Assembly (NCBI GenBank): GCA_943354905.1
Contig: CALRDL010000005.1
Coordinates: 1 to 42,513 of the forward strand
DNA from: Candidatus Nomurabacteria bacterium
Lineage (GTDB): Bacteria > Patescibacteriota > Minisyncoccia > Phycocordibacterales > UBA9973
Direction of reading: 5' to 3'
DNA length: 42,513 bases
Below the pieces are notes generated by a model. It was not told the DNA's origin. It worked only from the letters and a program-made list of their open reading frames with translations, and searched no databases. A program made the position numbers and the translations under genes. This document shows positions 24,875 through 42,250 of the stretch, piece by piece (the stretch's first letter is position 1; every line of letters starts with the position of its first letter).

Positions 24875-27800
24875 TTAGATTTTTCTTCCGAATCTCTCTA
24901 ATAGTACTGGCATAAAGAATAGTGATGTTATCGTAGAGGTTATAAGCCCTCCCATAGTAACGACAGCGAGTGGTGCTAGAAACTCATTACCAGGAGAACT
25001 AGCTCCAATAATGAACGGGATCAAAGCTAGACCTGCAACTATAGAAGTCATGATTATTGGAACTACTCTTTCCTTTGTTGCCATAATGACTGTATTCAAT
25101 GGTATTCCTGGAATATTCTCATCATCTAGCTCTTTTACTCTTGAGATAAGCATAATTCCATTACGAGAAACTATTCCTGCAAGAGAAATAAAACCGACTA
25201 GATGAGCAAGACTAATGGTCCCTCCTTCTATGTACACAAACAGTAGTCCACCAAAGAATGCCACAGGTATATTAAGAAGGATAAGTGCTGTAAGTATCCA
25301 AGAAGAGAAAACATTGTAAAGAATAATCGCAATGAGTAGTATTACTATAATAAACAAAAATAATAATTTATTACTGTTTTCTTTTTGGCTTTGGTAGGTA
25401 CCCTCGTAACTAATAGTAATATTTTCTGGTTGTTCTCCTTTTTCTAGTATTAATTTTGCAGAATCTACTGCTCCGATAATATCACCACCTTCATAGTTTG
25501 CACTCACGACTACGACACGTTTTCCACCTTCATGACTTATGGATGTTCTTCCTTCGCCAAATTCTATGCTTGAACTATTTCCAATATTAACGCCTGTCTC
25601 GCTCACAAGTGTATCCCGTAGTCCACTAAATGAATTTCTACTTTCATTATCTAACTTTGTTACTACGGGTATTCGTTGTAATCCCGACACTACTTCGCCA
25701 ACATTATTTCCAATAAATCCTGATTCAATTTCCTTTCCAAGAAGTCCAGGATCATTTCCTTGTTTAAAGAGTGTGCCTAAGTCTGGGTATATATGGATTT
25801 CTGGAACTTTTACATCTCGTGATAATTGAGCGTTACTTACTCCCGACTGCGAAGTAAGAGCGGTTATAACCACATTTCCATAGCTTCGCAAATTGTCTAC
25901 ATCATCTCCGTATAATTTTATAACAATTGGAGCACGCACACCTGAAAGTAGTTCTTCTACGCGATGGGTAATAGGTTTACCAAGTGAAAAACTAGCACCA
26001 GGGAATTTATCTAGTATGTTTTGAACTTCCAATATATACTCATCTATTTTTTCTGTAGATCCTTCTTTAAAGACTATTTGCATTTCACCTGAATTTGCAC
26101 CACTTGCATGAGGATCTGCTCCTGCACGACCAGTCGTATTACTGACATTTAATACAAAAGGTAGTGATTTGATTTGTGCACCAATATTTTGAGAAAAAAG
26201 ATTTGTTGTTTCAAGACCAGTACCATTTGGAAGAAGTACTCCTATAGTTAATGAATCTTCATTAAAGGGTGGTATTCCTTCTCTGCCTGCATTAACATAT
26301 AAAATAATAGTTGCAATCATTATTATTATAAATATACCAGTAACTACTTTCCAAGAATAAATGATTGATTTTAATATTTTTTCTGTTCCTAATTCAATCC
26401 AAGTAATTATTCTTGGGGGTTTTTCTTCGTGTTCATCTTCGTTGAGGAACAATGATGCAAGTGCAGGCGTAAGAGTTAACGAAACAATAAGTGATGCAAT
26501 CAATGACACTATATAAGATAGACCTAATGACGTAAGTAATTTTCCTTCAACACCAGGTAAAAAGAACACAGGAATAAACACAAGGACTACTAAGATAGTT
26601 GCGTATATGATAGACCCTCTTACTTCTTGAACTGCATTAACAATGAGTTTTAGTCTTTCAAGTCCAGTAACTTTTTTACCGCGTAATCTTTTAATAATAT
26701 TTTCAACACTGACAATTGCATCGTCCACTAATTCACTAACTGCTACAGCTATACCACCAAGTGTCATAACATTTACTGATAAACCCAAGATATAGAATAT
26801 GATCGCCGTAAATGCAATCGAAGTAGGTATTGCTAGTAGGGTTATAAGTGTTGGTTTCCATTTTACTAAAAATAGAAATACAATAAGAGCAACAATGATA
26901 AGCGCCTCAAATAGAGCCTTTTCAACATTTGAAAGTCCTGCAGAAATAAACCATTCCTGTCTAAAAAGATCAGTACGAAGAGTTATTTCACTTGGAGCTG
27001 TTTTTTGCAAATCTGTAAAAAGTGTATCCACTGCCTTACTTACTTTTAGCGTTTCAGCATCTGGCTGTTTGAATATTCTAAGAATTATTCCCTGACTGCC
27101 GTCAACAGATGCACCACCACGGACAATACTCGCTCCTTCAACAAATGAGGCGATTTCGCCGAGGCGAACAACACCTTTTTCAGTTTGTATCGCAATTTCA
27201 GCCAATTCGCTAATTTCTTTTGGGGCTACAAAAATTCGAACGGGATACTCTTTGTTTTGTTGTTGCAATATCCCCGCAGATGCATTTTGTAAATTCCTCT
27301 CCAAAACAAGATTTACTTCTTCTTGAGTAATACCATATCTTCCTAATGTGTCTGCATTAAGACGCACTTGCCACTCAAGCACATCTCCACCCATTACAAT
27401 TACATCAGAAATACCTTTAACCTTTAGTAAGTTAGGTTTTAGAGTGAAGTCTGCATATGTTCGTAACTCTACAGGTGAAAAATGTACATCACTTTTTATA
27501 CCTGCCCACATTATTTCTCCCATCACAGAAGAAACGGGGCCTAGTGAAACTTTTACGTTCGAAGGTAATGCAACAGCGGATATTCTCTCTTGGACTAATT
27601 GTCTATTTTTATATATATCACTACCAAACGGAAATTCGATATTTATAATACCAAGCGCAAATGAAGCAGTACCACGAACTCTTTCAACATTTGCCGTACC
27701 AAGTACTGCATTTTCTAGTGGTATCAATACTGCTTTTTCCACTTCTTCTGGTGCAAGCCCATCTGCCTCCGCAAAAACTATTACAGTAGGTTTGTTAATG

Positions 27801-27922
27801 TCTGGCAATACATCTACTTTCATATTCATACCAGCATATATACCCAAAAAAGTAAGTAATACTGAAAAGAAAATAGTTTTATTTCTATGTAAGGTTGACC
27901 AACTAATTATTTTTTTAAACAT
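24875..27922 (-). CDS. RND-family efflux transporter (AcrB/CusA superfamily)
   Basis: 1015 aa; DINKPTVIVFAEADGLAPEEVEKAVLIPLE, GIAVAVSELVDDAIVSVENIIKRLRG, repeated TM blocks. Confidence 0.93.
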   Translation of the reverse strand: MFKKIISWSTLHRNKTIFFSVLLTFLGIYAGMNMKVDVLPDINKPTVIVFAEADGLAPEEVEKAVLIPLENAVLGTANVERVRGTASFALGIINIEFPFGSDIYKNRQLVQERISAVALPSNVKVSLGPVSSVMGEIMWAGIKSDVHFSPVELRTYADFTLKPNLLKVKGISDVIVMGGDVLEWQVRLNADTLGRYGITQEEVNLVLERNLQNASAGILQQQNKEYPVRIFVAPKEISELAEIAIQTEKGVVRLGEIASFVEGASIVRGGASVDGSQGIILRIFKQPDAETLKVSKAVDTLFTDLQKTAPSEITLRTDLFRQEWFISAGLSNVEKALFEALIIVALIVFLFLVKWKPTLITLLAIPTSIAFTAIIFYILGLSVNVMTLGGIAVAVSELVDDAIVSVENIIKRLRGKKVTGLERLKLIVNAVQEVRGSIIYATILVVLVFIPVFFLPGVEGKLLTSLGLSYIVSLIASLIVSLTLTPALASLFLNEDEHEEKPPRIITWIELGTEKILKSIIYSWKVVTGIFIIIMIATIILYVNAGREGIPPFNEDSLTIGVLLPNGTGLETTNLFSQNIGAQIKSLPFVLNVSNTTGRAGADPHASGANSGEMQIVFKEGSTEKIDEYILEVQNILDKFPGASFSLGKPITHRVEELLSGVRAPIVIKLYGDDVDNLRSYGNVVITALTSQSGVSNAQLSRDVKVPEIHIYPDLGTLFKQGNDPGLLGKEIESGFIGNNVGEVVSGLQRIPVVTKLDNESRNSFSGLRDTLVSETGVNIGNSSSIEFGEGRTSISHEGGKRVVVVSANYEGGDIIGAVDSAKLILEKGEQPENITISYEGTYQSQKENSNKLLFLFIIVILLIAIILYNVFSSWILTALILLNIPVAFFGGLLFVYIEGGTISLAHLVGFISLAGIVSRNGIMLISRVKELDDENIPGIPLNTVIMATKERVVPIIMTSIVAGLALIPFIIGASSPGNEFLAPLAVVTMGGLITSTITSLFFMPVLLERFGRKI

Positions 27923-27937
27923 ACTATATATGAAGAA

Positions 27938-29698
27938 TTAATGTTCATGAGGCTTGCTTTCATCTTGGATTAGAGGAGATGATATTTCGACCTTTGATTT
28001 AGTTTTAATAACTTCAGAGAGAGATTTTCCATTTTCTAATATAACAAGAGGGTCAAGTATAACGAGATACGAAAATTCTCGTTCAAGTCCTGAAAGAATT
28101 TCCACATACTCCCCAAGTCCTCTTCCAACTTTTATTTCTTGCTTACGAATTGTATTGCTCTCGGTAACGATCCAAACGAACGGTGTTACTCCTTCAAATA
28201 CCACGGCTTTACGATTTATGAATACTCCTTTTTTAGAATTTTCGGGAATAATACGAACTGACGCTCCCACTGGAAATACTGTTTCTTTGGAAATTACAGC
28301 TTCTGCTTGATATCCACCTTTCTCATCAATTATAGGACTAATACCAGCAATAATCGCACTACCCATTCCATATTCTGACCGCCATGCAATTGAAAGACTA
28401 TCTCCCTTGTTTATATCCTTCCATGAAGCAGGTATGGTGAATCTCACACTTTTTCTGGGATTTGCATTGGATATAAAGCCTATACGATCAGAGATTGTCA
28501 CATAGTCACCAACATTTTTCTCAACAGTTGCCACCACTCCTGACTTTGTAGAGAGTATAGGGATAACTCCACCAGCACTCACTGCAAGTTTTTGAGCAAG
28601 AATTAAAGCTACTTTAGCATTATTTTCTGCCTTACTTTGAGTATTTTTTTGATCAAGCTTTTTTAAATCTAATTCAGTTTCGAATGAAATGAGGTTTTTT
28701 TGCAAATCTACACCCACCAAAGATTGTTCTCGGTATCGAGTTGACACATCTGCTGTTTTTTCTTGATAATCTTTTACAAGTGCAAAAGCATCATCAATAT
28801 TTTTTTGAGTAAAAAGATCACCTTGAGGAAAACTCTCTGTAAGAACCTCGGTTGTTTTTTTAAGGAATTGTTGTAAGTCTCCGATTTCTACATTTCCATC
28901 TCTTATTTTTTTTACATACCCATTTGTATAACTTTGGTATTCAGAATCTAGTAAGGTTCTTTTTACCCCTACACCGTATTTAATCCCTAGGTATGTTTTA
29001 TCATTGAAGATAGAACTTCCTGTTTGAAAAAGAACCCCCAGAGAGGAATACGACTGATTTGGGATTCCTATCAGAGGATAAATTTCAGAAAATGAAAGGC
29101 GTGCAAGATTATTGATTTCACTCTCGACTACATTTTCATTTTTTATCTTTCCATATGCTTGATTTTGTGATTCAGACAAGTTTTTATATTTTTCTTGAGC
29201 TTGTGAGAATACATCACCTGAGTCTTGAGCTATACTCATAGCTAGTTCAGCATCTAGTTTTGCTTTAATTGCTTCAGATTCTGCAACAGCAATTTGTTGT
29301 TGCTGTTCTGAAGATACTCCAGTAACTGTAATGTATCCAAGAACACTGCCTGTAGATACGCTATCACCCACAGAAACATTCCAAGAGCTAATCACTCCTT
29401 CTCGAGAAGGATTAATTGATGCCACATCCTTTGATACGATCTCGCCATAGAAACTACCAAGACCTTCCTGTGATATAGCATCAGTATCTGTATCACCAAC
29501 CTTCCTGACAACTACTTGTTCATTTTGTTTTACTTCAACAACAGGAGTATCATGTCCATCAGGACTAGCATACACGATAGTTGTTGTAACTACGACCAAA
29601 ACAAACAGTCCTACTATAGAAAAGATCTTTTGATTTTTTGTTAACTTTTGTAGTATTTCAAAAGACCTCTTTTTGTATAAAGAGATTTTTTCTTTCAT
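27938..29698 (-). CDS. RND/HlyD-type membrane fusion (adaptor) protein
   Basis: Single N-terminal TM, EGVISSWNVSVGDSVSTGSVLGYI and KSGVVATVEKNVGDYVTISDRIGFI lipoyl-like halves, coiled-coil insert. Confidence 0.85.
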   Translation of the reverse strand: MKEKISLYKKRSFEILQKLTKNQKIFSIVGLFVLVVVTTTIVYASPDGHDTPVVEVKQNEQVVVRKVGDTDTDAISQEGLGSFYGEIVSKDVASINPSREGVISSWNVSVGDSVSTGSVLGYITVTGVSSEQQQQIAVAESEAIKAKLDAELAMSIAQDSGDVFSQAQEKYKNLSESQNQAYGKIKNENVVESEINNLARLSFSEIYPLIGIPNQSYSSLGVLFQTGSSIFNDKTYLGIKYGVGVKRTLLDSEYQSYTNGYVKKIRDGNVEIGDLQQFLKKTTEVLTESFPQGDLFTQKNIDDAFALVKDYQEKTADVSTRYREQSLVGVDLQKNLISFETELDLKKLDQKNTQSKAENNAKVALILAQKLAVSAGGVIPILSTKSGVVATVEKNVGDYVTISDRIGFISNANPRKSVRFTIPASWKDINKGDSLSIAWRSEYGMGSAIIAGISPIIDEKGGYQAEAVISKETVFPVGASVRIIPENSKKGVFINRKAVVFEGVTPFVWIVTESNTIRKQEIKVGRGLGEYVEILSGLEREFSYLVILDPLVILENGKSLSEVIKTKSKVEISSPLIQDESKPHEH

Positions 29699-31475: not shown

Positions 31476-31525
31476 CCACCATACGTTAAAAATCTCCCAG
31501 AAGGGAGATTTTTAACGTATGGTGG
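31476..31525. repeat. Perfect 23-bp inverted repeat with 4-nt loop, overlapping tRNA-Ala 3' end (probable tRNA terminator)
   Basis: CCACCATACGTTAAAAATCTCCC-AGAA-GGGAGATTTTTAACGTATGGTGG. Confidence 0.95.
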
Positions 31526-31595
31526 ACCGTACAGGACTCGAACCTGCCACCCCCTCATTGCAAATGAGGTGCTCTACCAGATGAGCTAACGGCCC
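31520..31595 (-). tRNA. tRNA-Ala(TGC), CCA encoded
   Basis: GGGCCGTTAGCTCATCTGGTAGAGCACCTCATTTGCAATGAGGGGTGGCAGGTTCGAGTCCTGTACGGTCCACCA; cloverleaf read by hand. Confidence 0.95.
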
Positions 31596-31724
31596 AAACA
31601 GCATTTAAGCAATTGCTCAAACACTAGGTTATTCTAACTTATTTTATCAATAATGCAAATTTTGATGTTGTTTTTTACTTAAATTCTGTTAGTATGGAAG
31701 AAGTTCTTTGTTTTAATTAAATAT

Positions 31725-31796
31725 TCGGGAGTAGCTCAGCGGTAGAGCGGTCGCCTGTTAAGCGATTGGTCGTAGGTTCGATCCCTACCTCCCGAG
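31725..31796 (+). tRNA. tRNA-Asn(GTT), CCA not encoded
   Basis: TCGGGAGTAGCTCAGCGGTAGAGCGGTCGCCTGTTAAGCGATTGGTCGTAGGTTCGATCCCTACCTCCCGAG. Confidence 0.94.
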
Positions 31797-31798
31797 CA

Positions 31799-32156: not shown

Positions 32157-32711
32157 ATGGAAAAATTAAAATTTACATTGTTTTCTATTGTGGTTCTGGT
32201 CGGATTTGGGCTTCTCGGATATTGGGCTATTGTAAATATACAATCAGGTTCTGAACATTCAATCAAACAAAAAGTCGAGCAACTACAGGATGAGAATGAA
32301 AATCTGAAGACAGAATTAGTATCGGTAAAAAAAGAATTAGGTACTCTAAAATCAGAGCTAGAAATACCACCAGCTTTAGTTGGTGAAGAGAAACCAAAAG
32401 AGACACCAGAAGAACTAAAACCAACAGAGACGACTAAGTACAAATACCAGATCTTGATAGACGAATTAAATAAATTGGTAAAAGATAATGTATATATGAA
32501 ATTGAAGTCTTCTGGTTCGAGAGTTGGGACAGTCCAGAAATTTTTAAATCTTTTCAATAATACGACAAGTAAGATAGATAATGACTATGGTCCGACTACG
32601 GTAAAGCTTGTAACAGTTTTCCAAAAAGATCAAGGCTTGTCGGCAGACGGAGAGGCTGGACCAACTACATTTATCAAAATGATAGATTGGTTAAAAAAGA
32701 AAGGTGTCTAA
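32157..32711 (+). CDS. Membrane-anchored coiled-coil protein with peptidoglycan-binding_1-like domain
   Basis: N-terminal TM; SRVGTVQKFLNLFNN...IDNDYGPTTVKLVTVFQKDQGLSADGEAGPTTFIKMI. Confidence 0.8.
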   Translation: MEKLKFTLFSIVVLVGFGLLGYWAIVNIQSGSEHSIKQKVEQLQDENENLKTELVSVKKELGTLKSELEIPPALVGEEKPKETPEELKPTETTKYKYQILIDELNKLVKDNVYMKLKSSGSRVGTVQKFLNLFNNTTSKIDNDYGPTTVKLVTVFQKDQGLSADGEAGPTTFIKMIDWLKKKGV

Positions 32712-32992: not shown

Positions 32993-33505
32993 ATGTCTAA
33001 AAAATCTCCATACACAAAGCTAGAAAAAATAGTCATGGTTAGTGGGGGGTTTGATCCCATTCACCCAGGACATGTGCGACTGTTTAAGGAAGCCAAGAAG
33101 CTCGGTGATAGGCTGGTGGTGGTGATCAACAACGATAACTGGATTCGAAATAAAAAAGGTCAAGGTTTCATGAATGCAAAAGACAGAGCTGAAGTAATCT
33201 CGCATTTTCGTGATGTAGATCGAGTTATTATTTCCGTGCATCGAAAAAATTCAAAAGATGCGCGAGCTATGAGTGTCTGTGCGGAGTTGTCTAAAATTCG
33301 TCCATATATGTTTGTGAATGGGGGTGACCGAAACAATAAAGATGCAGATAATCCACTTTCTTCTTTACACCATGATATAAATATGTGTAAAAAGCTCGGA
33401 ATCAAAATTGTTTATAATGTCGGCAAAGGTGGAAAAATTAATAGCTCCTCCAAATTGCTCAAAAAATACGTTGATAAAAAATTAAAAAGTAATGCTTCCA
33501 AATAA
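32993..33505 (+). CDS. Nucleotidyltransferase (cytidylyltransferase-like, HIGH motif family)
   Basis: VSGGFDPIHPGHVRLFKEAKKLGDRLVVVINND. Confidence 0.88.
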   Translation: MSKKSPYTKLEKIVMVSGGFDPIHPGHVRLFKEAKKLGDRLVVVINNDNWIRNKKGQGFMNAKDRAEVISHFRDVDRVIISVHRKNSKDARAMSVCAELSKIRPYMFVNGGDRNNKDADNPLSSLHHDINMCKKLGIKIVYNVGKGGKINSSSKLLKKYVDKKLKSNASK

Positions 33506-34259
33506 AAAAATTATTGCTTTCGATATCGATGGTACGTTGACAGTGAGCAAGATGCCCATTACCGAGTCAATGGCTAGTTTGATTAAAGAATTAATAAAAA
33601 AGAAAATGATTTTTGTGATTTCAGGTGGTGGCTTTAGACAATTAGAGACGCAATTCCTCCCACCATTTCTAAAAGATGAGGATCTGATGCCATTTATAAA
33701 TAATTTAAAATTATTACCAACGAGCGGTAGTCAGAGATACGAATATGATAAAGAAAAAAAGGAATGGGTGCTAACCGATAAAGAACCACTACAGGAAGAA
33801 GTAAAAGATCGAGCCAAGAAATTATTACAAATAGTGATTGATTCTCCAGAATATGGCATACCGCTCAACCCTATTGGAGCAATTATTGAAGACCGAGATA
33901 CACAGATAACTTTTACCCCGAATGGGCAACAAGCTCCAATCGAGATGAAAAAGCTTTTTGATCCGGACAGAAAAAAGAGAGAAAAGATTCGAGCCATACT
34001 CGCCCCCCACTTACCTGAAGTTGAGATTTTGGTTAATGGTACTTCGAGTATCGATATTTTACCCAAAGGATTTAATAAAGCAGTGGGACTTTCACGCTTA
34101 CTAGACAAGTTGGGTTTACAAAAATCTGATATGATATTTGTTGGCGATGCGCTTTTTCCTGGGGGGAACGATTATTCAGTTCATGAAGCGGGTATAGAAA
34201 CTATTGCAGTTGGGGGGCCAGAAGAAACTACGGAAGTTATTAAAAACTGGCTTAATTAA
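33492..34259 (+). CDS. HAD-IIB phosphatase, phosphomannomutase-like
   Basis: IIAFDIDGTLTVSKMPI, ISGGGFRQLETQF, VGDALFPGGNDYSV; PMM-like arrangement. Confidence 0.8.
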   Translation: MLPNKKIIAFDIDGTLTVSKMPITESMASLIKELIKKKMIFVISGGGFRQLETQFLPPFLKDEDLMPFINNLKLLPTSGSQRYEYDKEKKEWVLTDKEPLQEEVKDRAKKLLQIVIDSPEYGIPLNPIGAIIEDRDTQITFTPNGQQAPIEMKKLFDPDRKKREKIRAILAPHLPEVEILVNGTSSIDILPKGFNKAVGLSRLLDKLGLQKSDMIFVGDALFPGGNDYSVHEAGIETIAVGGPEETTEVIKNWLN

Positions 34260-34287
34260 ACATTTGGTTGTATACTTATATACAATT

Positions 34288-34638
34288 ATGGCTGAATTTA
34301 AACCATTTACAATAGAGCGTCCGTGGGGGAATTTTCGACAACTTACTCATAATAATCCGTCCACAGTAAAAATTCTTTTTATAAAAAGAGGCGAAACGTT
34401 CAGTTTACAATATCACAACAAACGAAAAGAATTCTGGCGAGTGATTTCAGGGTTGCCAGAAATAACAATGGGAGAATCTATGGTTAATGCAAAAGCTGGA
34501 GATGAATTTGAAATACCACCCAAAATGAATCATCGTGTTAGATCCACAGGTGGTGATACTGAAATTTTAGAGATATCGACAGGGGATTTCGATGAAAATG
34601 ATATTATAAGAATAGAAGACAAATATGGCAGAGTCTAA
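34288..34638 (+). CDS. Cupin, mannose-6-phosphate isomerase type II-like
   Basis: ERPWGNFRQLTHNNPSTVKILFIKRGETFSLQYHNKRKEFWRVISG...IPPKMNHRV. Confidence 0.85.
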   Translation: MAEFKPFTIERPWGNFRQLTHNNPSTVKILFIKRGETFSLQYHNKRKEFWRVISGLPEITMGESMVNAKAGDEFEIPPKMNHRVRSTGGDTEILEISTGDFDENDIIRIEDKYGRV

Positions 34639-35743
34639 AAATAAAAAAATAATTAAAAAGGTTTCAACCAAAGTTGGGATAAAAAAAGTTGTAAAAAAAG
34701 TTACAAAGAAAAAAGTTGCAAAAATAAAAAAAAGGGTAGAGCTCACTCGCGCTCTACATAACCCGATAATTTCTCCACGTCTGTATCCATGGGAGTCGAA
34801 AGCAACATTTAACCCGACAGCATTTCTGGGCACAGGAAAGATTCATCTTATTTATCGTGCTATCGGGCATGATGATTCGTCTGTACTCGGCTATGCTGGA
34901 AGCCACGATGGTTACAACATCATCGATCGTCCTACGTACACTATTTTTATGCGCAGAAATAATTTTAATAGGGTAAAATACACAGTTGCGCCGATAGACT
35001 ATATCTCAGGAGGTGGATGGAACGGTGGATGCGAGGATCCACGTGTTACGCGGATAGACGACACGGTATATTTACTTTACATAGCTTTTGACGGCTGGGG
35101 TTCAGTTCGTATTGCTCTTACTTCAATAGCGTTTTCAGATTTTGAAGCAAAAAGGTGGCAATGGAAAAATCCAATACTAATTTCACCCCCAAATGAAATA
35201 CATAAGAATTGGGTTATCTTTCCAGAAAAAGTGAAGGGCAAGTACGCTATTTTACATAGCATTTCACCTAAAATCTTAATTCACTATTTCGATAGTTTTG
35301 ATGAATTTGATGGCAAGAAATTTATAAATAGTATTCATCAAGGCAGTCCAGAGTGGCAGTCGCGCGAGCGCGGGGTGCGCGGGGTTGGGCCAGCACCCAT
35401 CAAAACTGAGCTTGGATGGCTGATGCTTTACCACAAAATCGAAGAACATGATCCTGGGCGATATAAAATTTGGGCAATGATCCTAGACAGTGAAGATCCG
35501 ACGAAAGTTCTTTACAAATCACCAGAGCCAATTCTCGAACCGGACGAGGATTATGAAAATAACGGTTGCAAATGGGGAGTTATTTATACTTGCGGAGCGG
35601 TGGTGAAAAACGATAGGCTTTTTGTATATTACGGTGGAGCAGACATGGTGGTCGGGGTAGCAACGATTTTACTTACTGAACTACTCGAAGATCTGAAAAA
35701 ACACAAAGTTGTAAAATTTAAAAAATATGTAACGAGGATTTAA
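34625..35743 (+). CDS. GH130-like mannoside phosphorylase with polybasic N-terminal tail
   Basis: HNPIISPRLYPWESKATFNPTAFLGTGKIHLIYRAIG; GGCEDPRVTRIDDTVYLLYIAF. Confidence 0.85.
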   Translation: MAESKNKKIIKKVSTKVGIKKVVKKVTKKKVAKIKKRVELTRALHNPIISPRLYPWESKATFNPTAFLGTGKIHLIYRAIGHDDSSVLGYAGSHDGYNIIDRPTYTIFMRRNNFNRVKYTVAPIDYISGGGWNGGCEDPRVTRIDDTVYLLYIAFDGWGSVRIALTSIAFSDFEAKRWQWKNPILISPPNEIHKNWVIFPEKVKGKYAILHSISPKILIHYFDSFDEFDGKKFINSIHQGSPEWQSRERGVRGVGPAPIKTELGWLMLYHKIEEHDPGRYKIWAMILDSEDPTKVLYKSPEPILEPDEDYENNGCKWGVIYTCGAVVKNDRLFVYYGGADMVVGVATILLTELLEDLKKHKVVKFKKYVTRI

Positions 35744-35746
35744 GAT

Positions 35747-37684
35747 ATGTTTGTTGTTAAACGTTCACATCACAATCCAATACTTACTCCAGATAAAGAT
35801 CGCTACTGGGAGGCCTTTGCCACTTTTAACATGAGTGTGGTTTTGCACGGGAATATTTTTTACGGGGTTTATCGCGCTATCTCCTCACCCGATAAGCTTC
35901 GTACTCCGGAACAGATTTCAGTTATCGGTATTGGTGAGAGTAAAGATGGAACGCATTTTGAAAAACGTCGGCAATTTATTACCCCAAAAGAAGAATGGGA
36001 AAAATATGGATGCGAAGATCCACGCATAACATATTTTGAAGGTAAATTTTATACTTTTTATACGGCGTTGGGCGGGTATCCGTTTGGACCTGAAAATATC
36101 AAAGTCGCAGTGGCCGTTTCAAAAGATTTAAAAACTGTATTTGAAAGGCATTTAGTAACCCCGTTTAATGCCAAAGGTGCAACTCTTTTTGGAGAACGTA
36201 TCGGAGGCAAGGTAGTCCTTATCTTTTCTTCTCATACCGATGAGGCAGGTACTGAAATGGTCTTAGCCTTGACAAACGAAGTTGCAGATTTTTGGGATCC
36301 TGAATTTTGGAATAAATGGAATCAGGGTGTGGGGAAATATGTGTTAAATCCTCGCCGTGCTCCGCATGACCATATAGAGGTTGGCGCCACACCGATAAAA
36401 ACAAAGTCTGGCTGGTTGCTCATTTACTCATACATTCAAAATTATTTTTCTAGTTCAGAAAATTTACCGCGCATCTTTGGCATTGAAGCTCTACTTTTGG
36501 ATTTAGATGATCCGAGTAAAATAATCGGTGCGACCAAAGGGCCGATACTGGTGCCCTCAGAAGTTTACGAACTCTCTGGCCACGTTGGCGATATTGTTTT
36601 TCCGAGTGGGGCAGTACTCGAAAAAGACCGCCTAACTATCTACTACGGTGCGTCTGATACCACTATTTGTAAAGCATATATGAATATAATTGATCTTATT
36701 TCCACCATCAATCCAAAGACCGAAAGCAAATGGCATTTTTCTCGTTATGTAAAGAATCCAATTCTTTTGCCTCTTTTAGATCACACATGGGAATCAAAAG
36801 CTGTTTTCAATCCAGCGGCTCTTCAGATCGGCAAGACTACCCACATTGTTTATCGAGCGCTTTCGAACGACAACACTTCTACTTTGGGTTATGCTTCTGC
36901 CGAAGACGGGTGCAATATCAAAGAGCGTTTTACTGAACCGATATACATTCCGCGTGAAGAATTTGAAACCAAGAAAATTTCCGGAGCAAATTCTGGATGC
37001 GAGGATCCGCGCATTACTAAAATAGGGAAAACTATTTACATGTGTTACACCGCATTTGATGGAGTCGGACCTCCGCGGGTTGCCATTACTTCCATCAGCG
37101 AAAAAAACTTTCTCGCTCACAATTGGAAATGGGAGCGTCCGATGATCATAACCCCAACTGGATTCGACGACAAGGATACCTGTGTTTTTCCAGAAAAGGT
37201 AGATGGAAAATATTTTATTCTGCATCGAGTTAATGACCAGGTGTGCGGAGACTTTGTGCGTACCCTTGATTCAAAAAATGATATCGTAAAAAAATGCATA
37301 CGCATTTTCGGGCCGAAAGTAAATGCTTGGGATAGTGTCAAAGTTGGCATTGCCGCACCGCCGATCAAAACAAAGTACGGTTGGCTATTGCTTTATCATG
37401 GGGTGTCACACACGCATGGTACTTATCGCATCGGCGCTGTGCTTTTAGATAAAAAAGACCCCACCTTGGTTCTTGCTCGCACGGCTGATCCAATATTTTG
37501 GCCAGAGGAAGAGTACGAAAAAAAGGGTGTGGTGAATAATGTTGTTTTTCCCTGCGGGATGGCTAAAATAGGTGAGAAACTATACATATATTACGGAGGA
37601 GCTGATACCGTGGTCGGGGTTGCGATGATGAATCTCGATGTCATGCTTACAGCACTTACTCGAAATCTTAGCATCAAACGTTAG
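35747..37684 (+). CDS. Tandem double GH130-like protein
   Basis: Two modules: YGCEDPRITYFEGKFYTFYTAL and SGCEDPRITKIGKTIYMCYTAF, each with HNPIL/KNPIL start and YYGASDT/YYGGADTVVGVA end. Confidence 0.87.
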   Translation: MFVVKRSHHNPILTPDKDRYWEAFATFNMSVVLHGNIFYGVYRAISSPDKLRTPEQISVIGIGESKDGTHFEKRRQFITPKEEWEKYGCEDPRITYFEGKFYTFYTALGGYPFGPENIKVAVAVSKDLKTVFERHLVTPFNAKGATLFGERIGGKVVLIFSSHTDEAGTEMVLALTNEVADFWDPEFWNKWNQGVGKYVLNPRRAPHDHIEVGATPIKTKSGWLLIYSYIQNYFSSSENLPRIFGIEALLLDLDDPSKIIGATKGPILVPSEVYELSGHVGDIVFPSGAVLEKDRLTIYYGASDTTICKAYMNIIDLISTINPKTESKWHFSRYVKNPILLPLLDHTWESKAVFNPAALQIGKTTHIVYRALSNDNTSTLGYASAEDGCNIKERFTEPIYIPREEFETKKISGANSGCEDPRITKIGKTIYMCYTAFDGVGPPRVAITSISEKNFLAHNWKWERPMIITPTGFDDKDTCVFPEKVDGKYFILHRVNDQVCGDFVRTLDSKNDIVKKCIRIFGPKVNAWDSVKVGIAAPPIKTKYGWLLLYHGVSHTHGTYRIGAVLLDKKDPTLVLARTADPIFWPEEEYEKKGVVNNVVFPCGMAKIGEKLYIYYGGADTVVGVAMMNLDVMLTALTRNLSIKR

Positions 37685-37844: not shown

Positions 37845-38456
37845 ATGGCTGAATCAATAGAATGGTTGCGTTTGTTTATAATTGACTATCAGTCAATAGA
37901 ATATCTCATAATTTTCTTAGCGGCGATGTTCGGAGGAGAGATTGTTTTATTTTTAGTTGGGTTTCTCATAGCTCAAAATTTTTTTTCGAGTTTTCTGATT
38001 GTGCCTATAATTTTTTTAGGTGCTTTTTTGCCAAATATTTTTTGGTTTTTTTTGGCGAAAACAAAATTGATAGACAAGACCGCTACATCTAGACATGGCA
38101 GTGTGACCTTTGCTGTCATTACAGAAGCCATACATAGAGCTAGTAAAGGCAATCATTTTTTGGCATTTATTATAATAAAATTTCTTGTCGGCACTCCAGT
38201 ATTGTTGGTCACTTACATACACAAGACCCAATTATCATTTAAAAAATTTATGTATTACCAATCTACATCCTTGGCTCTATCCATATTCATCATTGCATTT
38301 ATTGGTTTTACTGCAGGCAAGGGCTACGCGTATGTTTCTGAAATTTCTGAGAATATATATACTTCGATTGGATTTATTTTATTTTTCGTGTTTATCTTAC
38401 TTGTTTTTCAAGTATGGTTTGAGAAATTTTTCACCAAGAAAAATATAGATAAATAA
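37845..38456 (+). CDS. DedA/VTT-like membrane protein
   Basis: Multiple TM segments, FGGEIVLFLVGFLIAQ...FLGAFLPNIFWFFLAK, FIIIKFLVGTPVLLVTYIHK. Confidence 0.6.
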   Translation: MAESIEWLRLFIIDYQSIEYLIIFLAAMFGGEIVLFLVGFLIAQNFFSSFLIVPIIFLGAFLPNIFWFFLAKTKLIDKTATSRHGSVTFAVITEAIHRASKGNHFLAFIIIKFLVGTPVLLVTYIHKTQLSFKKFMYYQSTSLALSIFIIAFIGFTAGKGYAYVSEISENIYTSIGFILFFVFILLVFQVWFEKFFTKKNIDK

Positions 38457-38484: not shown

Positions 38485-38883
38485 TATAATATGGGTATGA
38501 ATATAAATTTACAAGCTAAAAATATGGAGTTGACAGAAGCTATCAGGGATTATGTTTTAAATAAAGATACCAACCTAGGTAGATTGCTTGCCAATAAAAA
38601 TGGACTGAATATTTCTTTTGAAGTTTCAAAAAATACGAATCATCATAAATCCGGGAATGTTTTTCATGCGGATTGTTTGATCAACCTAGATGGTGAGAAA
38701 TTTTATGCGAGTGCTGACGAAGAAGATCTGTATCAAGCTATAGATGTGGTCAAAGAGAATCTTTTTCGAGAAATAAGTAAGAACAAAGATCGTAAGCAAA
38801 CTCTCTTTAAACGTGGAGCAACTAGTGTCAAAAAAATGTTGAAAGGTCTTTCCAAGAGAAATCCTTTTACTTCGAAGTATTAA
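38485..38883 (+). CDS. raiA: Ribosome hibernation-promoting factor / RaiA
   Basis: MNINLQAKNMELTEAIRDYVLNK...ADEEDLYQAIDVVKENLFREI; short-form HPF. Confidence 0.87.
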   Translation, partial: YNMGMNINLQAKNMELTEAIRDYVLNKDTNLGRLLANKNGLNISFEVSKNTNHHKSGNVFHADCLINLDGEKFYASADEEDLYQAIDVVKENLFREISKNKDRKQTLFKRGATSVKKMLKGLSKRNPFTSKY

Positions 38884-39739
38884 TCTTTAGAAATTCTTCC
38901 CATTTTATTTCTTTTCTACCCTCAGGGAGGACTTTTTTGATGACAAAAACACTGTCACCACCAGCCCGACAGGTGTCGTCCGGTCGGGCGGGAATTAGGT
39001 CAGCGTCAGTAATTATGATTCTTTTGTTGTTTTGGAAAAAGAAAGTCCTTGGCCAAGAGGCGTATGCTCTGAATTTATTATAATTTTTTATAGGATCATC
39101 ATTTAAATTTATCAGCCCGTCTTCTTTCTTTATTTTTTTGCAAAATGTTGTCTGAGATTCATCTTGCTTTTCTCCATCTTTGAAAGGACTCTGTAATAAT
39201 TTTACCAAAAGTTCTCCACCGATTTTTATTAAACGTGTTCTCAATGCAGGGGCTGTTTCATTTTTACCTATTTGAACTTTTTCCATTGCTAAAATGTTTC
39301 CAGAATCTAATTTAAATTCCATTTGTTGAATCGCTACTCCTGTTTCTGTTTCACCATTTAATATTGCTGATTCTACAGGCGAAGCACCCCGATATTTGGG
39401 TAAAAGAGAATAATGGATATTAATTGATCCTAATTTTGGAATTTTTAAAATATTTTCAGGGATTATTTTCCCATAAGCCACTATAATAGATAAGTCATAT
39501 TTTTTAAATTTTAATTGGTTAGCAAATTCAGCATCTAGTTTTTCTGGTTTTAGGCAGGGGATATTGTTTTCTTCTGCAAATAAGCCGGCGGGCGAAGTTT
39601 GCATATGTAAACCTCGCCCGCTTTTTGCATCCGGTGACGTAACAATAAGCATAGGCAAAAACTCTATTTTTTTTAAAATTTCAAGTGTATCAGAGGCAAC
39701 ATCTGGTGTACCAAAGAATATAAAATTTAATTTTTGCAT
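38867..39739 (-). CDS. fmt: Methionyl-tRNA formyltransferase
   Basis: FIFFGTPDVASDTLEIL, SINIHYSLLPKYRGASPVESAILNGETETGV. Confidence 0.96.
   Translation of the reverse strand: MQKLNFIFFGTPDVASDTLEILKKIEFLPMLIVTSPDAKSGRGLHMQTSPAGLFAEENNIPCLKPEKLDAEFANQLKFKKYDLSIIVAYGKIIPENILKIPKLGSINIHYSLLPKYRGASPVESAILNGETETGVAIQQMEFKLDSGNILAMEKVQIGKNETAPALRTRLIKIGGELLVKLLQSPFKDGEKQDESQTTFCKKIKKEDGLINLNDDPIKNYNKFRAYASWPRTFFFQNNKRIIITDADLIPARPDDTCRAGGDSVFVIKKVLPEGRKEIKWEEFLKINTSK
38961..38992. repeat. GC-rich palindrome inside fmt (3' part)
   Basis: CCAGCCCGAC-AGGTGTCGTCCG-GTCGGGCGGG, encodes IPARPDDTCRAGG on the minus strand. Confidence 0.8.
39588..39621. repeat. GC-rich near-perfect palindrome inside fmt (5' part)
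   Basis: GCGGGCGAAGTTTGCATATGTAAACCTCGCCCGC. Confidence 0.8.
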
Positions 39740-39740
39740 A

Positions 39741-40331
39741 TTATTTTCGTACTTCTTCTTTTAAATCTTTAGCGTGATCTGTAAAAAGTATGCCATTTAG
39801 ATGATCTGTCTCATGTTGAAAGATCTGAGCGAGTAATCCTGAAGCACCACGGATAAATTTCTTTCCATTTTCGTCATAGGCTGTGACGGTGGCTTTTAGA
39901 GAGCGATAAGTTTTACCATAAATTGGACGTACTGAAAGACAACCTTCAGGTACCCATTCTTTTTTTTTGGACATTTTCGAAATTTTTGGATTTATAAATA
40001 CCATATCTTTTTCTGCAACAGGGTCAATGTTGTCGCTCCCTCCCCGCACGCCATCGCTTCGCTCTGGCGAAAGCGGGTGGGTCGGCGCGTCCGCCTGCGA
40101 GAGACCTTGTGGAGCGAATTCTGCTGAAAAGACTTTTCCTGAGACTACAAAAATTCGCAGACTATATCCTATCTGTGGGCCTGCAATAGCTACACCATCA
40201 CTTTCTTTAGCCAAAGACTCTGACATTTCTTTTAACACTTTTTGTATTTTGGGCGTTTTTATATCTACGATACGTATTTCTTCCGCTATTTTATGCAAAA
40301 CTTTGCTATCTTTTTGAAGAATTTTCTTCAT
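39741..40331 (-). CDS. def: Peptide deformylase with internal insertion
   Basis: DGVAIAGPQIG, EGCLSV, HETDHLNGILF motifs. Confidence 0.95.
   Translation of the reverse strand: MKKILQKDSKVLHKIAEEIRIVDIKTPKIQKVLKEMSESLAKESDGVAIAGPQIGYSLRIFVVSGKVFSAEFAPQGLSQADAPTHPLSPERSDGVRGGSDNIDPVAEKDMVFINPKISKMSKKKEWVPEGCLSVRPIYGKTYRSLKATVTAYDENGKKFIRGASGLLAQIFQHETDHLNGILFTDHAKDLKEEVRK
40043..40077. repeat. GC-rich hairpin inside def insertion
   Basis: CCCGC-A-CGCCA-TCGCTTCGCTC-TGGCG-AAA-GCGGG. Confidence 0.75.
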
Positions 40332-40348
40332 GATTATTATCTATCAAA

Positions 40349-41653
40349 TTATTTTAACTCTTTCAAGTATTCCAGAAGCTCAGTTAATTTTACTGTGTTT
40401 TGGGACCGGTTACTCATGTCCCTTACTATTACCGAATTGTCCAAAGCTTCTTTGACTCCAAATATTAGAGCGTAAGGGACGGCGAGTTTTTCAGCTATAG
40501 CGAGCTGAGAACTTAGGCTATCTTTGGATAATGATTGAGCTATTGGTATATGCGCTTTTCTTAATATTTCAATAATGTTCAAGCTCTTTAATTTTGCTTC
40601 TGTTCCAAGCTGAATGAAATAAATTTTCGGTTTTTTTAATATTCTTGGAGCGAGTTTTTTATACCAAGGGGAAGCCACTATTCTATCTACGCCTATAGAC
40701 ATACCCACAGCTGGGACGTCTTTCTTTGACCCTATTTGGCGAGCTAGATAATCATAACGTCCACCACCAGCGAGTGCGATCGCGGAACTATTCTCTCCTG
40801 TTGTTTCTTCTAGAACCTCAAAAACAGTGCGAGTATAGTAGGAAAGTCCACGGACTAGATTTTTATTTATATTATATTGAATACCCATCTCTTCTAGGTA
40901 TTCCAAAACTTCTTTGAAGTGTTTTTTGCATGAAGGACAAAGAAAAGAAATAGAATCAGGCGCATTTATATTTAGTTCCTTAGTTTTTTCTTCTTTTGAA
41001 TCAAGAATACGAAGCGGATTTATTTTTAGTCTTTCTCTATCCACGCTCGGTAGTTGACTTAGATTTTTTTTGTAATAATTTGTTAGCTCTTTAGTGTATG
41101 CATTTCTACATTCTTTGTCACCGATAGAATTTATATCGATAGAAAGATTGGTTGCACCAGCTTCTTCGAGAATGGTCATACATGTCTTGATCACGAGTGC
41201 GTCCATGATACTCTTTTCACTACCGAGTACATCAGAATCAAATTGCCAAAATTGTCGATAGCGTCCACGTTGAGGTTTTTCGTGTCTAAAAGACGGACCA
41301 TATTGATAGAGCATTACTGGTTGGGGCATGCTCTGCATTCCGTGTTCGATGTATGCGCGGACGAGGGGAGCAGTGTGTTCTGGTCGGAGGGCCAGATTGT
41401 CTCCACCTTTAGTTTTCAAATTATACATTTCTTTTTCTACTATGTCTGTGCCTTGACCTATCCCTGTGGTAAAAATTTCTTCGTGTTCTAATATGGGAGT
41501 CTCGAGAGGTTTAAAGCCATAGTATACAGCTATCTCTTGAGCTTTCTCAAAAAATCCTTGAAAGGCATAATATTCTTCATTCATCAGATCTCGCATTCCT
41601 TTTGGAGAAGTTACATCTTCGATTTTTAAATTTTTACTTATTTTATTTTTCAT
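40349..41653 (-). CDS. hisS: Histidine--tRNA ligase
   Basis: PKGMRDLMNEEYYAF, LRPEHTAPLVRAYIE, QFWQFDSDVLGSE, GGGRYDYLARQIG. Confidence 0.97.
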   Translation of the reverse strand: MKNKISKNLKIEDVTSPKGMRDLMNEEYYAFQGFFEKAQEIAVYYGFKPLETPILEHEEIFTTGIGQGTDIVEKEMYNLKTKGGDNLALRPEHTAPLVRAYIEHGMQSMPQPVMLYQYGPSFRHEKPQRGRYRQFWQFDSDVLGSEKSIMDALVIKTCMTILEEAGATNLSIDINSIGDKECRNAYTKELTNYYKKNLSQLPSVDRERLKINPLRILDSKEEKTKELNINAPDSISFLCPSCKKHFKEVLEYLEEMGIQYNINKNLVRGLSYYTRTVFEVLEETTGENSSAIALAGGGRYDYLARQIGSKKDVPAVGMSIGVDRIVASPWYKKLAPRILKKPKIYFIQLGTEAKLKSLNIIEILRKAHIPIAQSLSKDSLSSQLAIAEKLAVPYALIFGVKEALDNSVIVRDMSNRSQNTVKLTELLEYLKELK

Positions 41654-41659
41654 ACAAAT

Positions 41660-42250
41660 TTAGTTTACTTGTTGTTTATAATCGCCCGGCATAAAATCTA
41701 TATCATTTATCGGAAGAAGTCGTAGTAATGCTCTACCGGTAATGAATTTTCTTTGAAGAGGTCCCCAGTATCTGGAATCAGAACTCGCGTTTCTGTTGTC
41801 TCCCATCACAAAATACTCATCATCTTTTAATGTTAGATGCGTAGTATTGGTTTGCATTTCTTTTATATAGGGTTCATTTAGTACAAATCCATCTATATAC
41901 TCATCGTTAAATATAGTTATAGTATTATTTTTTATGTCTACTGTTTCTTCAGGTAATCCTATGATTCTCTTGATCAAGAATTTTTTCGGATTAGGTGGAT
42001 ATTTAAAAACAACAACATCATCTCTTTCTGGTTTATCTAATCTGTAAGATATTTTGTCTACTATCAAATAATCCGCATTCTCGAAAGTAGGGAACATAGA
42101 ACTTCCAGAAACTACGAATGGCTCGGCTAAGAAAAAACGAACAGGAATGACTACCAAGAGTGCTATAAATGCGAAACGCACCAATTCCCAAAATGATTGC
42201 CATGTGGTTTTTTCATTTTCATTTGGTTGAGCTGTCGTATTTTTTTCCAT
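41660..42250 (-). CDS. lepB: Signal peptidase I
   Basis: EPFVVSGSSMFPTFENADYLIVDK, FLIKRIIGLPEETVDI, FVMGDNRNASSDSRYWG. Confidence 0.96.
   Translation of the reverse strand: MEKNTTAQPNENEKTTWQSFWELVRFAFIALLVVIPVRFFLAEPFVVSGSSMFPTFENADYLIVDKISYRLDKPERDDVVVFKYPPNPKKFLIKRIIGLPEETVDIKNNTITIFNDEYIDGFVLNEPYIKEMQTNTTHLTLKDDEYFVMGDNRNASSDSRYWGPLQRKFITGRALLRLLPINDIDFMPGDYKQQVN

Follow-up and report, generated by a model that had tools for sequence, protein, structure and literature searches.

The stretch of DNA analysed here, called the window, covers positions 1-42,513 of contig CALRDL010000005.1, from the Candidatus Nomurabacteria bacterium assembly GCA_943354905.1. The source genome comprises 750 kb in 31 contigs, is 96% complete, and has Nomurabacteria, Taylorbacteria and Vogelbacteria as its named relatives. 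Five consecutive forward-strand genes (32993-37684) encode a nucleotidyltransferase (NTase), a HAD phosphohexomutase, a cupin of the phosphomannose isomerase (PMI) type and two proteins built from glycoside hydrolase family 130 (GH130) propellers, one single (GHs) and one double (GHd). This composition, proposed in a first-pass annotation made from the sequence alone, is confirmed by the open reading frames and by Pfam, NCBIfam and PDB searches. The reading favoured here, with somewhat better than even confidence, is that the operon provides Nomurabacteria-like Patescibacteria with a beta-1,2-mannan reserve in the cytoplasm, which takes over the function of glycogen. Its parts are as follows:

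32993..33505, + strand: NTase, 170 amino acids (aa), cytidylyltransferase-like, HldE-domain-II/TagD-like (PF01467, TIGR02199)
33492..34259, + strand: HAD-IIB phosphohexomutase, 255 aa, eukaryotic phosphomannomutase (PMM)/L. lactis alpha-PGM type (PF03332)
34285..34638, + strand: type II PMI-like cupin, 117 aa (PF01050, TIGR01479)
34625..35743, + strand: GHs, single GH130 propeller, module 1B of the ancestral set (PF04041)
35747..37684, + strand: GHd, double GH130 protein, modules 2A and 2B (PF04041)
35747..36709, + strand: module 2A of GHd, GH130 propeller with a conserved altered phosphate site
36710..37684, + strand: module 2B of GHd, canonical beta-1,2-mannan phosphorylase module

The arrangement is operon-like, since neighbouring genes either overlap (NTase/HAD and cupin/GHs, 14 bp each) or sit a few to 25 bases apart (GHs/GHd, 3 bp; HAD/cupin, 25 bp). 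The encoded proteins look soluble, with no evident signal peptides on inspection, and neither a transporter nor a secreted mannanase was found within the operon by the open reading frame list and Pfam search.

The HAD protein matches the PMM family PF03332 with 38.7 bits (cut-off 22.4), has the L. lactis alpha-PGM 4bnd as its best PDB match (1.2e-33) and retains the DxDGT motif as DIDGT at residues 11-15. It is presumed to interconvert mannose-6-phosphate (Man-6-P) and mannose-1-phosphate (Man-1-P). The cupin, which matches PF01050 (1.9e-18, 67.2 bits for a cut-off of 23.6) and the PMI end of TIGR01479 (positions 359-467), is likewise presumed to interconvert fructose-6-phosphate and Man-6-P. 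The NTase matches PF01467 (2.3e-16), TIGR02199 (1.6e-19, below the cut-off of that model) and the PDB entries 3glv and 1coz; it is a candidate sugar-1-phosphate nucleotidylyltransferase, a substrate that we infer. Statements about the whole source genome come from targeted family searches. These revealed no PF02878 phosphohexomutase and a single PF00483 protein, GlmU-like by inspection, so that no GDP-mannose pyrophosphorylase (GMP) was found in that family. Among 100 related genomes, which form the comparison sample, the GMP part of TIGR01479 is matched in only two (G041 and G097). The supply of GDP-mannose was rejected on these grounds as the main role of the operon. Man-1-P would have no obvious GDP-mannose outlet, the GMP model being almost absent, although a GMP of another family could escape such searches.

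The PF04041 matches of GHs (6.5e-43) and GHd (5.4e-96) are strong, each module lies above the gathering cut-off, and these three modules are the only GH130 modules found in the source genome. All three carry the GCEDPR motif, as the first-pass annotation had stated. The motif is however not sufficient to make them three equal modules, because their phosphate sites differ. GH130 phosphorylases hold phosphate through three basic residues, and a lysine (Lys199 of BT3780) was described by Cuskin and colleagues as the determinant of beta-1,2-mannan specificity (PMC4599007). About 115 modules from the related genomes were aligned with reference enzymes, using the numbering of Teth514_1789, with phosphate-binding residues assigned from the literature and the alignment rather than from an inspected structure. 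The catalytic Asp109 of the EDPR motif is invariant in 39 2B, 35 1B and 40 2A modules, and together with Glu108, Lys159, Arg54 and Asn39 it belongs to a set that varies little or not at all across all module types. Lys159, which by alignment corresponds to the beta-1,2 specificity lysine, is invariant in all three.

The 2B orthologs retain Arg177 in 39/39 cases and a basic residue at position 211 in all 38 that have a residue there (37 Lys, one Arg); in the window, 2B displays Lys159, Arg177, Lys211 and the catalytic Asp109. In 1B, position 177 is Ser, Asn, Gly or Ala in 32 of the 35 modules, Lys211 is lost and a new Arg212 gained, again in 32/35 each, and Lys274 and Tyr279 are present throughout (35/35). 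The GHs protein of the window has followed this course, with Ser for Arg177, Val for Lys211 and the new Arg212. In 2A, position 177 is Ser, Thr, Ala or Gly in 40/40, and Lys211 is lost in all, being replaced by His or Gln (39/40) or by Tyr in one; Glu213 is constant (40/40) and Ser replaces His at position 230 in 37/40. These residue states of 2A and 2B hold across the whole phylum sample, as does the invariance of the catalytic Asp and the main mannose-binding residues in 1B and 2A. As judged from this alignment, only 2B keeps both phosphate-binding residues tested, and their loss in GHs and 2A is conserved. A loss of this kind, which the first-pass annotation had named as telling against its idea, has affected two modules, GHs and 2A, and spared 2B. 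The cluster would thus consist of a single canonical phosphorylase together with two propellers put to other use.

Among solved structures, all three modules are closest to the beta-1,2-mannan phosphorylases Teth514_1788/1789. AlphaFold models of GHs (pLDDT 87, pTM 0.88) and of the whole GHd (pLDDT 93, pTM 0.90) have these phosphorylases as their nearest solved folds (7fir/9gph for GHs), and 2B matches 7fip/9fj8 by sequence with an E-value of 1e-57. By analogy with them (PMC4264767), 2B should catalyse the reversible conversion of beta-1,2-mannan and phosphate to alpha-Man-1-P. Of the checks that the first-pass annotation had suggested, the look at the catalytic pocket, carried out by alignment, showed the phosphate residues kept in 2B and lost in GHs and 2A, and the GH130 phylogeny resolved 1B and 2A as distinct clades. 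In this maximum-likelihood tree, 1B and 2A each form one clade (support 100 for both), with 1B and 2B grouped together (99). Arg177 (Lys in L076) and Lys211 are both found in distant 1B modules (L036-L038, L070, L071, L075, L076, L080-L084 and L089), and the altered ones, including that of the window, form a single supported clade (99), which fits one loss of the 1B phosphate site. The single protein corresponds in many outgroups to a double one whose N-terminal module, 1A, has decayed; in the window genus 1A has been lost and replaced by a tail that is 25-100 residues long and in most cases 30-49% Lys plus Arg. Such Lys/Arg-rich N-terminal tails of GHs orthologs look histone-like, and the one in the window is encoded at 34625-34740. 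A natural fusion of the single and double proteins ties GHs to GHd: in G466, four GH130 propellers lie in one 1281-aa protein (L075 4136-7981).

The cluster is not a chance assembly, since GHd is present in 54 of the 100 related genomes, mostly with a single GH130 protein beside it; the conservation and synteny that the first-pass annotation had proposed to check are therefore found. The cupin accompanies it in 36 of the 54 GHd-positive genomes and is missing from all 45 genomes that lack a GH130 match (Fisher 9e-14). A PMM-like HAD is found in 17 GHd-positive genomes, a Cof-like HAD in 16 and a PF02878 phosphohexomutase in 16. Together they cover 47/54, with only 2 overlaps where 11.8 are expected (a value this low arose in none of 20000 permutations). 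Judging from these families, three unrelated enzymes that rarely occur together appear to serve as the mutase. The slot between NTase and cupin holds the Cof-like HAD in most genomes that have one, the PMM-like HAD in several, and a ManB-type mutase, beside the cupin, in G007. The Cof-like HAD-IIB proteins that replace the PMM-like HAD (L045 2682-3437; L039, L044, L046-L050) are about 73-86% identical among genomes, and their exclusive distribution means that they may be an undescribed phosphomannomutase. Glycogen phosphorylase (GT35) is absent from all 54 GHd-positive genomes and present in 8 of the 46 others (Fisher p = 0.0014); within the genus alone the figures are 0/44 and 4/16 (p = 0.004). 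The NTase adjoins the GH130 genes in most genus loci. As a strict GH130 partner it is not supported, 11 GH130-free genomes also carrying it.

The surroundings of the operon bring the main clue to its role. Its immediate neighbours are the following:

32157..32711, + strand: left flank, peptidoglycan-binding-domain protein (PGb; PF01471)
37845..38456, + strand: right flank, VTT/DedA-like membrane protein (PF09335, weak match)
38494..38883, + strand: right flank, ribosome hibernation factor (HPF; PF02482)

The last of these opens an HPF-fmt-def-hisS-lepB block (38494-42250) that is conserved in the genus, and of the 36 genus loci that extend far enough to show it, 25 have HPF downstream of GHd. 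That block, as HPF-fmt-(def)-hisS-lepB, is also found next to the four glycogen operons (GlgA-GH57-GT35) of the genus, and a VTT gene lies between cassette and HPF in mannan and glycogen versions alike (L045, L050, L092, L093). The left side tells the same story. The order in G031 is PGb-120aa-162aa-PGM-NTase-GPI cupin-GlgA-GH57-GT35-HPF-fmt: its PGb (L079 1888-2442) is 55% identical to that of the window, and its 120-aa and 162-aa genes share 78% and 86% identity with genes on the left of the G009 mannan cluster. G005 reads 394aa-224aa-148aa-HAD-NTase-GPI cupin-GlgA-GH57-GT35-VTT-HPF, with the 394-aa and 224-aa genes 77% and 75% identical to genes on the left of the G046 mannan cluster. A third version is found in G055, where NTase, HAD, cupin and HPF are kept and a GT4 glycosyltransferase (741 aa) plus a canonical GH130 (L058 1268-4524) replace GHs and GHd.

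The same genus site thus holds either the mannan cluster or a glycogen operon, between the same flanks. The mannan and glycogen versions share their logic, namely a mutase, an NTase (in two of the four glycogen operons), a cupin hexose-phosphate isomerase (PMI in the former, GPI of PF06560 in the latter) and polymer enzymes. This suggests that the two reserves are interchangeable, and the main reason for the reserve-polymer reading is precisely that hexose-phosphate handling is constant at the locus and polymer chemistry variable. HPF itself, considered as evidence of dormancy, was weakened as an argument: the HPF-fmt-def-hisS block also occurs without any cassette (L055, L056, L057), and it therefore serves as a locus marker only. 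That an HldE/TagD-like NTase recurs in the three versions, mannan, glycogen and GT4, suggests a supply of nucleotide-sugar, but such NTases also occur where none of these versions is present, and the glycogen-version NTase is only 27% identical to the mannan-version one. The TagD/HldE-like NTases lying inside the glycogen operons (L079 5249-5650 and L093 8133-8537, 88% identical between G031 and G005) might be GlgC replacements, giving nucleotide-glucose.

The route would probably run, in both directions, from fructose-6-phosphate through Man-6-P and Man-1-P to mannan. The cupin would convert fructose-6-phosphate to Man-6-P, the HAD mutase Man-6-P to alpha-Man-1-P, and the GH130 proteins would lengthen a beta-1,2-mannan. 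Module 2B would shorten it by phosphorolysis, returning Man-1-P to glycolysis at no ATP cost. Synthesis could proceed by reverse phosphorolysis through 2B or through the altered module of GHs, possibly with nucleotide-mannose from the NTase; 2A may be a mannan-binding or weakly hydrolytic module. What we infer is the polymer with its linkage and reserve role, and what the GHs and 2A modules do. Several points weigh against such a system. The mannan is predicted here from genes, and phosphorylases usually act in the degrading direction in cells. Seven GHd-positive genomes have none of the three mutases and 18 no cupin, some of these being incomplete drafts, and the NTase occurs in the 11 GH130-free genomes mentioned above. 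The p-values are also too small, because the genomes are not independent. The mutase exclusivity and the locus swap hold whatever their exact values. The proposal of the first-pass annotation that a beta-mannan is made or recycled through Man-1-P is therefore well supported by co-occurrence, interchangeable mutases and the exchange with glycogen genes, except that two of its three modules lack the phosphate site.

A narrower reserve model, which overlaps with the favoured one and retains real weight though short of even, considers GHs and 2A as non-catalytic, mannan-binding or regulatory modules, with 2B alone making and degrading the polymer reversibly. The lost phosphate sites of GHs and 2A are consistent with this, as is the fully decayed 1A of the outgroups, a precedent for decay of an N-terminal module; the Teth514 enzymes are moreover able to synthesise from Man-1-P (PMC4264767). 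A mere binding module would however have no obvious need for the catalytic Asp and main mannose-binding residues that are invariant in 1B and 2A. A bolder extension of the reserve reading, only tentatively put forward, sees GHs as a GH130-fold synthase using nucleotide-mannose from the HldE-like NTase. The operon would then be a full mannan counterpart of the glycogen operon, with activation, synthesis and phosphorolysis, evolved independently of Leishmania mannogen and cassette-exchanged at one Patescibacteria locus.

Salvage of beta-1,2-mannan oligosaccharides imported from other microbes, with GH130 phosphorolysis, mutase and isomerase feeding glycolysis, looks unlikely. Bacteria of the Candidate Phyla Radiation (CPR) live on other cells, the pathway is reversible, and Teth514_1788/1789 were proposed for salvage, into GDP-mannose, in Thermoanaerobacter (PMC4264767). 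Unlike in the Teth514 cluster, neither an ABC transporter nor an extracellular glycosidase lies beside the GH130 genes in the window (open reading frame list and Pfam search), two of the three modules have lost the phosphate site, and an internal reserve is favoured by the fact that a glycogen operon can occupy this locus instead. Quite improbable is a supply of mannose for a surface glycan or other mannoside, the GH130-like proteins then being transferases that use activated Man-1-P for an exported or small product, as the NTase and the GT4 plus canonical GH130 of G055 could suggest: the proteins are soluble without evident signal peptides, no flippase, polymerase or membrane glycosyltransferase is found in the operon, and no GMP was found either.

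To our knowledge, no bacterial storage polysaccharide made of mannose has been reported. If the beta-1,2-mannan reserve is real, many uncultured reduced-genome bacteria would store energy in this form, the choice between mannan and glycogen would be a cassette swap at a single locus, and strict selection would be seen to persist on a phosphorylase fold after the loss of its phosphate site. The starvation survival of ultrasmall bacteria also becomes directly testable with a few recombinant enzymes. GH130 members are known, and two such genes were mentioned in a Microgenomates genome (PMC7143001), the only mention of GH130 in CPR found in the searched literature, which contains, as far as it shows, no description of a mannan cassette replacing glycogen genes.

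Elsewhere in the window, RNA-family and repeat scans revealed two tRNAs and nothing bearing on the operon; these are divergent tRNA-Ala and tRNA-Asn genes (31520-31797), about 1.2 kb to its left. Further left (24875-29698), a long RND-type transporter (1015 aa) and an adaptor-like protein (586 aa) can be read from the sequence; such genes seem unusual for a genome so small.

Comparison with known systems helps to place the operon. The Bacteroides BT3780-type GH130 beta-1,2-mannosidases also lack the basic phosphate residues and carry the beta-1,2 lysine. In that type a Glu pair replaces the basic residues, whereas 1B has none and 2A has a single Glu two residues away (Glu213, with Ser/Thr at 177), a comparison made without residue-by-residue alignment of BT3780. 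The Leishmania mannogen enzymes (MTPs), which the first-pass annotation had placed in GH130, belong in fact to GT108 (PMC8950772). GT108 membership of the modules was itself rejected by sequence: they are GH130 by profile, and the MTP structures 6q50 and 6q4x are absent up to E = 10 from the profile searches with 1B and 2B. The MTPs are reached by fold only, far behind the Teth514 phosphorylases. They nevertheless share a five-bladed propeller, beta-1,2-mannan as the proposed product and a possible division of labour between transferase and phosphorylase.

Teth514_1788/1789 resemble the window proteins in fold, catalytic Asp, beta-1,2 lysine and the phosphate residues of 2B, as well as in having two GH130 genes side by side. 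They differ from them in that the window has a fused double protein and two of three modules without phosphate residues, and in that its operon includes PMI and PMM and has no transporter and no GMP. The glycogen operon (GlgA-GH57-GT35) of sister genomes differs by its glucose chemistry, the window having mannose chemistry, polymer enzymes that are all GH130 propellers and no branching enzyme. It is alike in locus, flanks, mutase and cupin isomerase, and in combining polymer-making with phosphorolytic enzymes.

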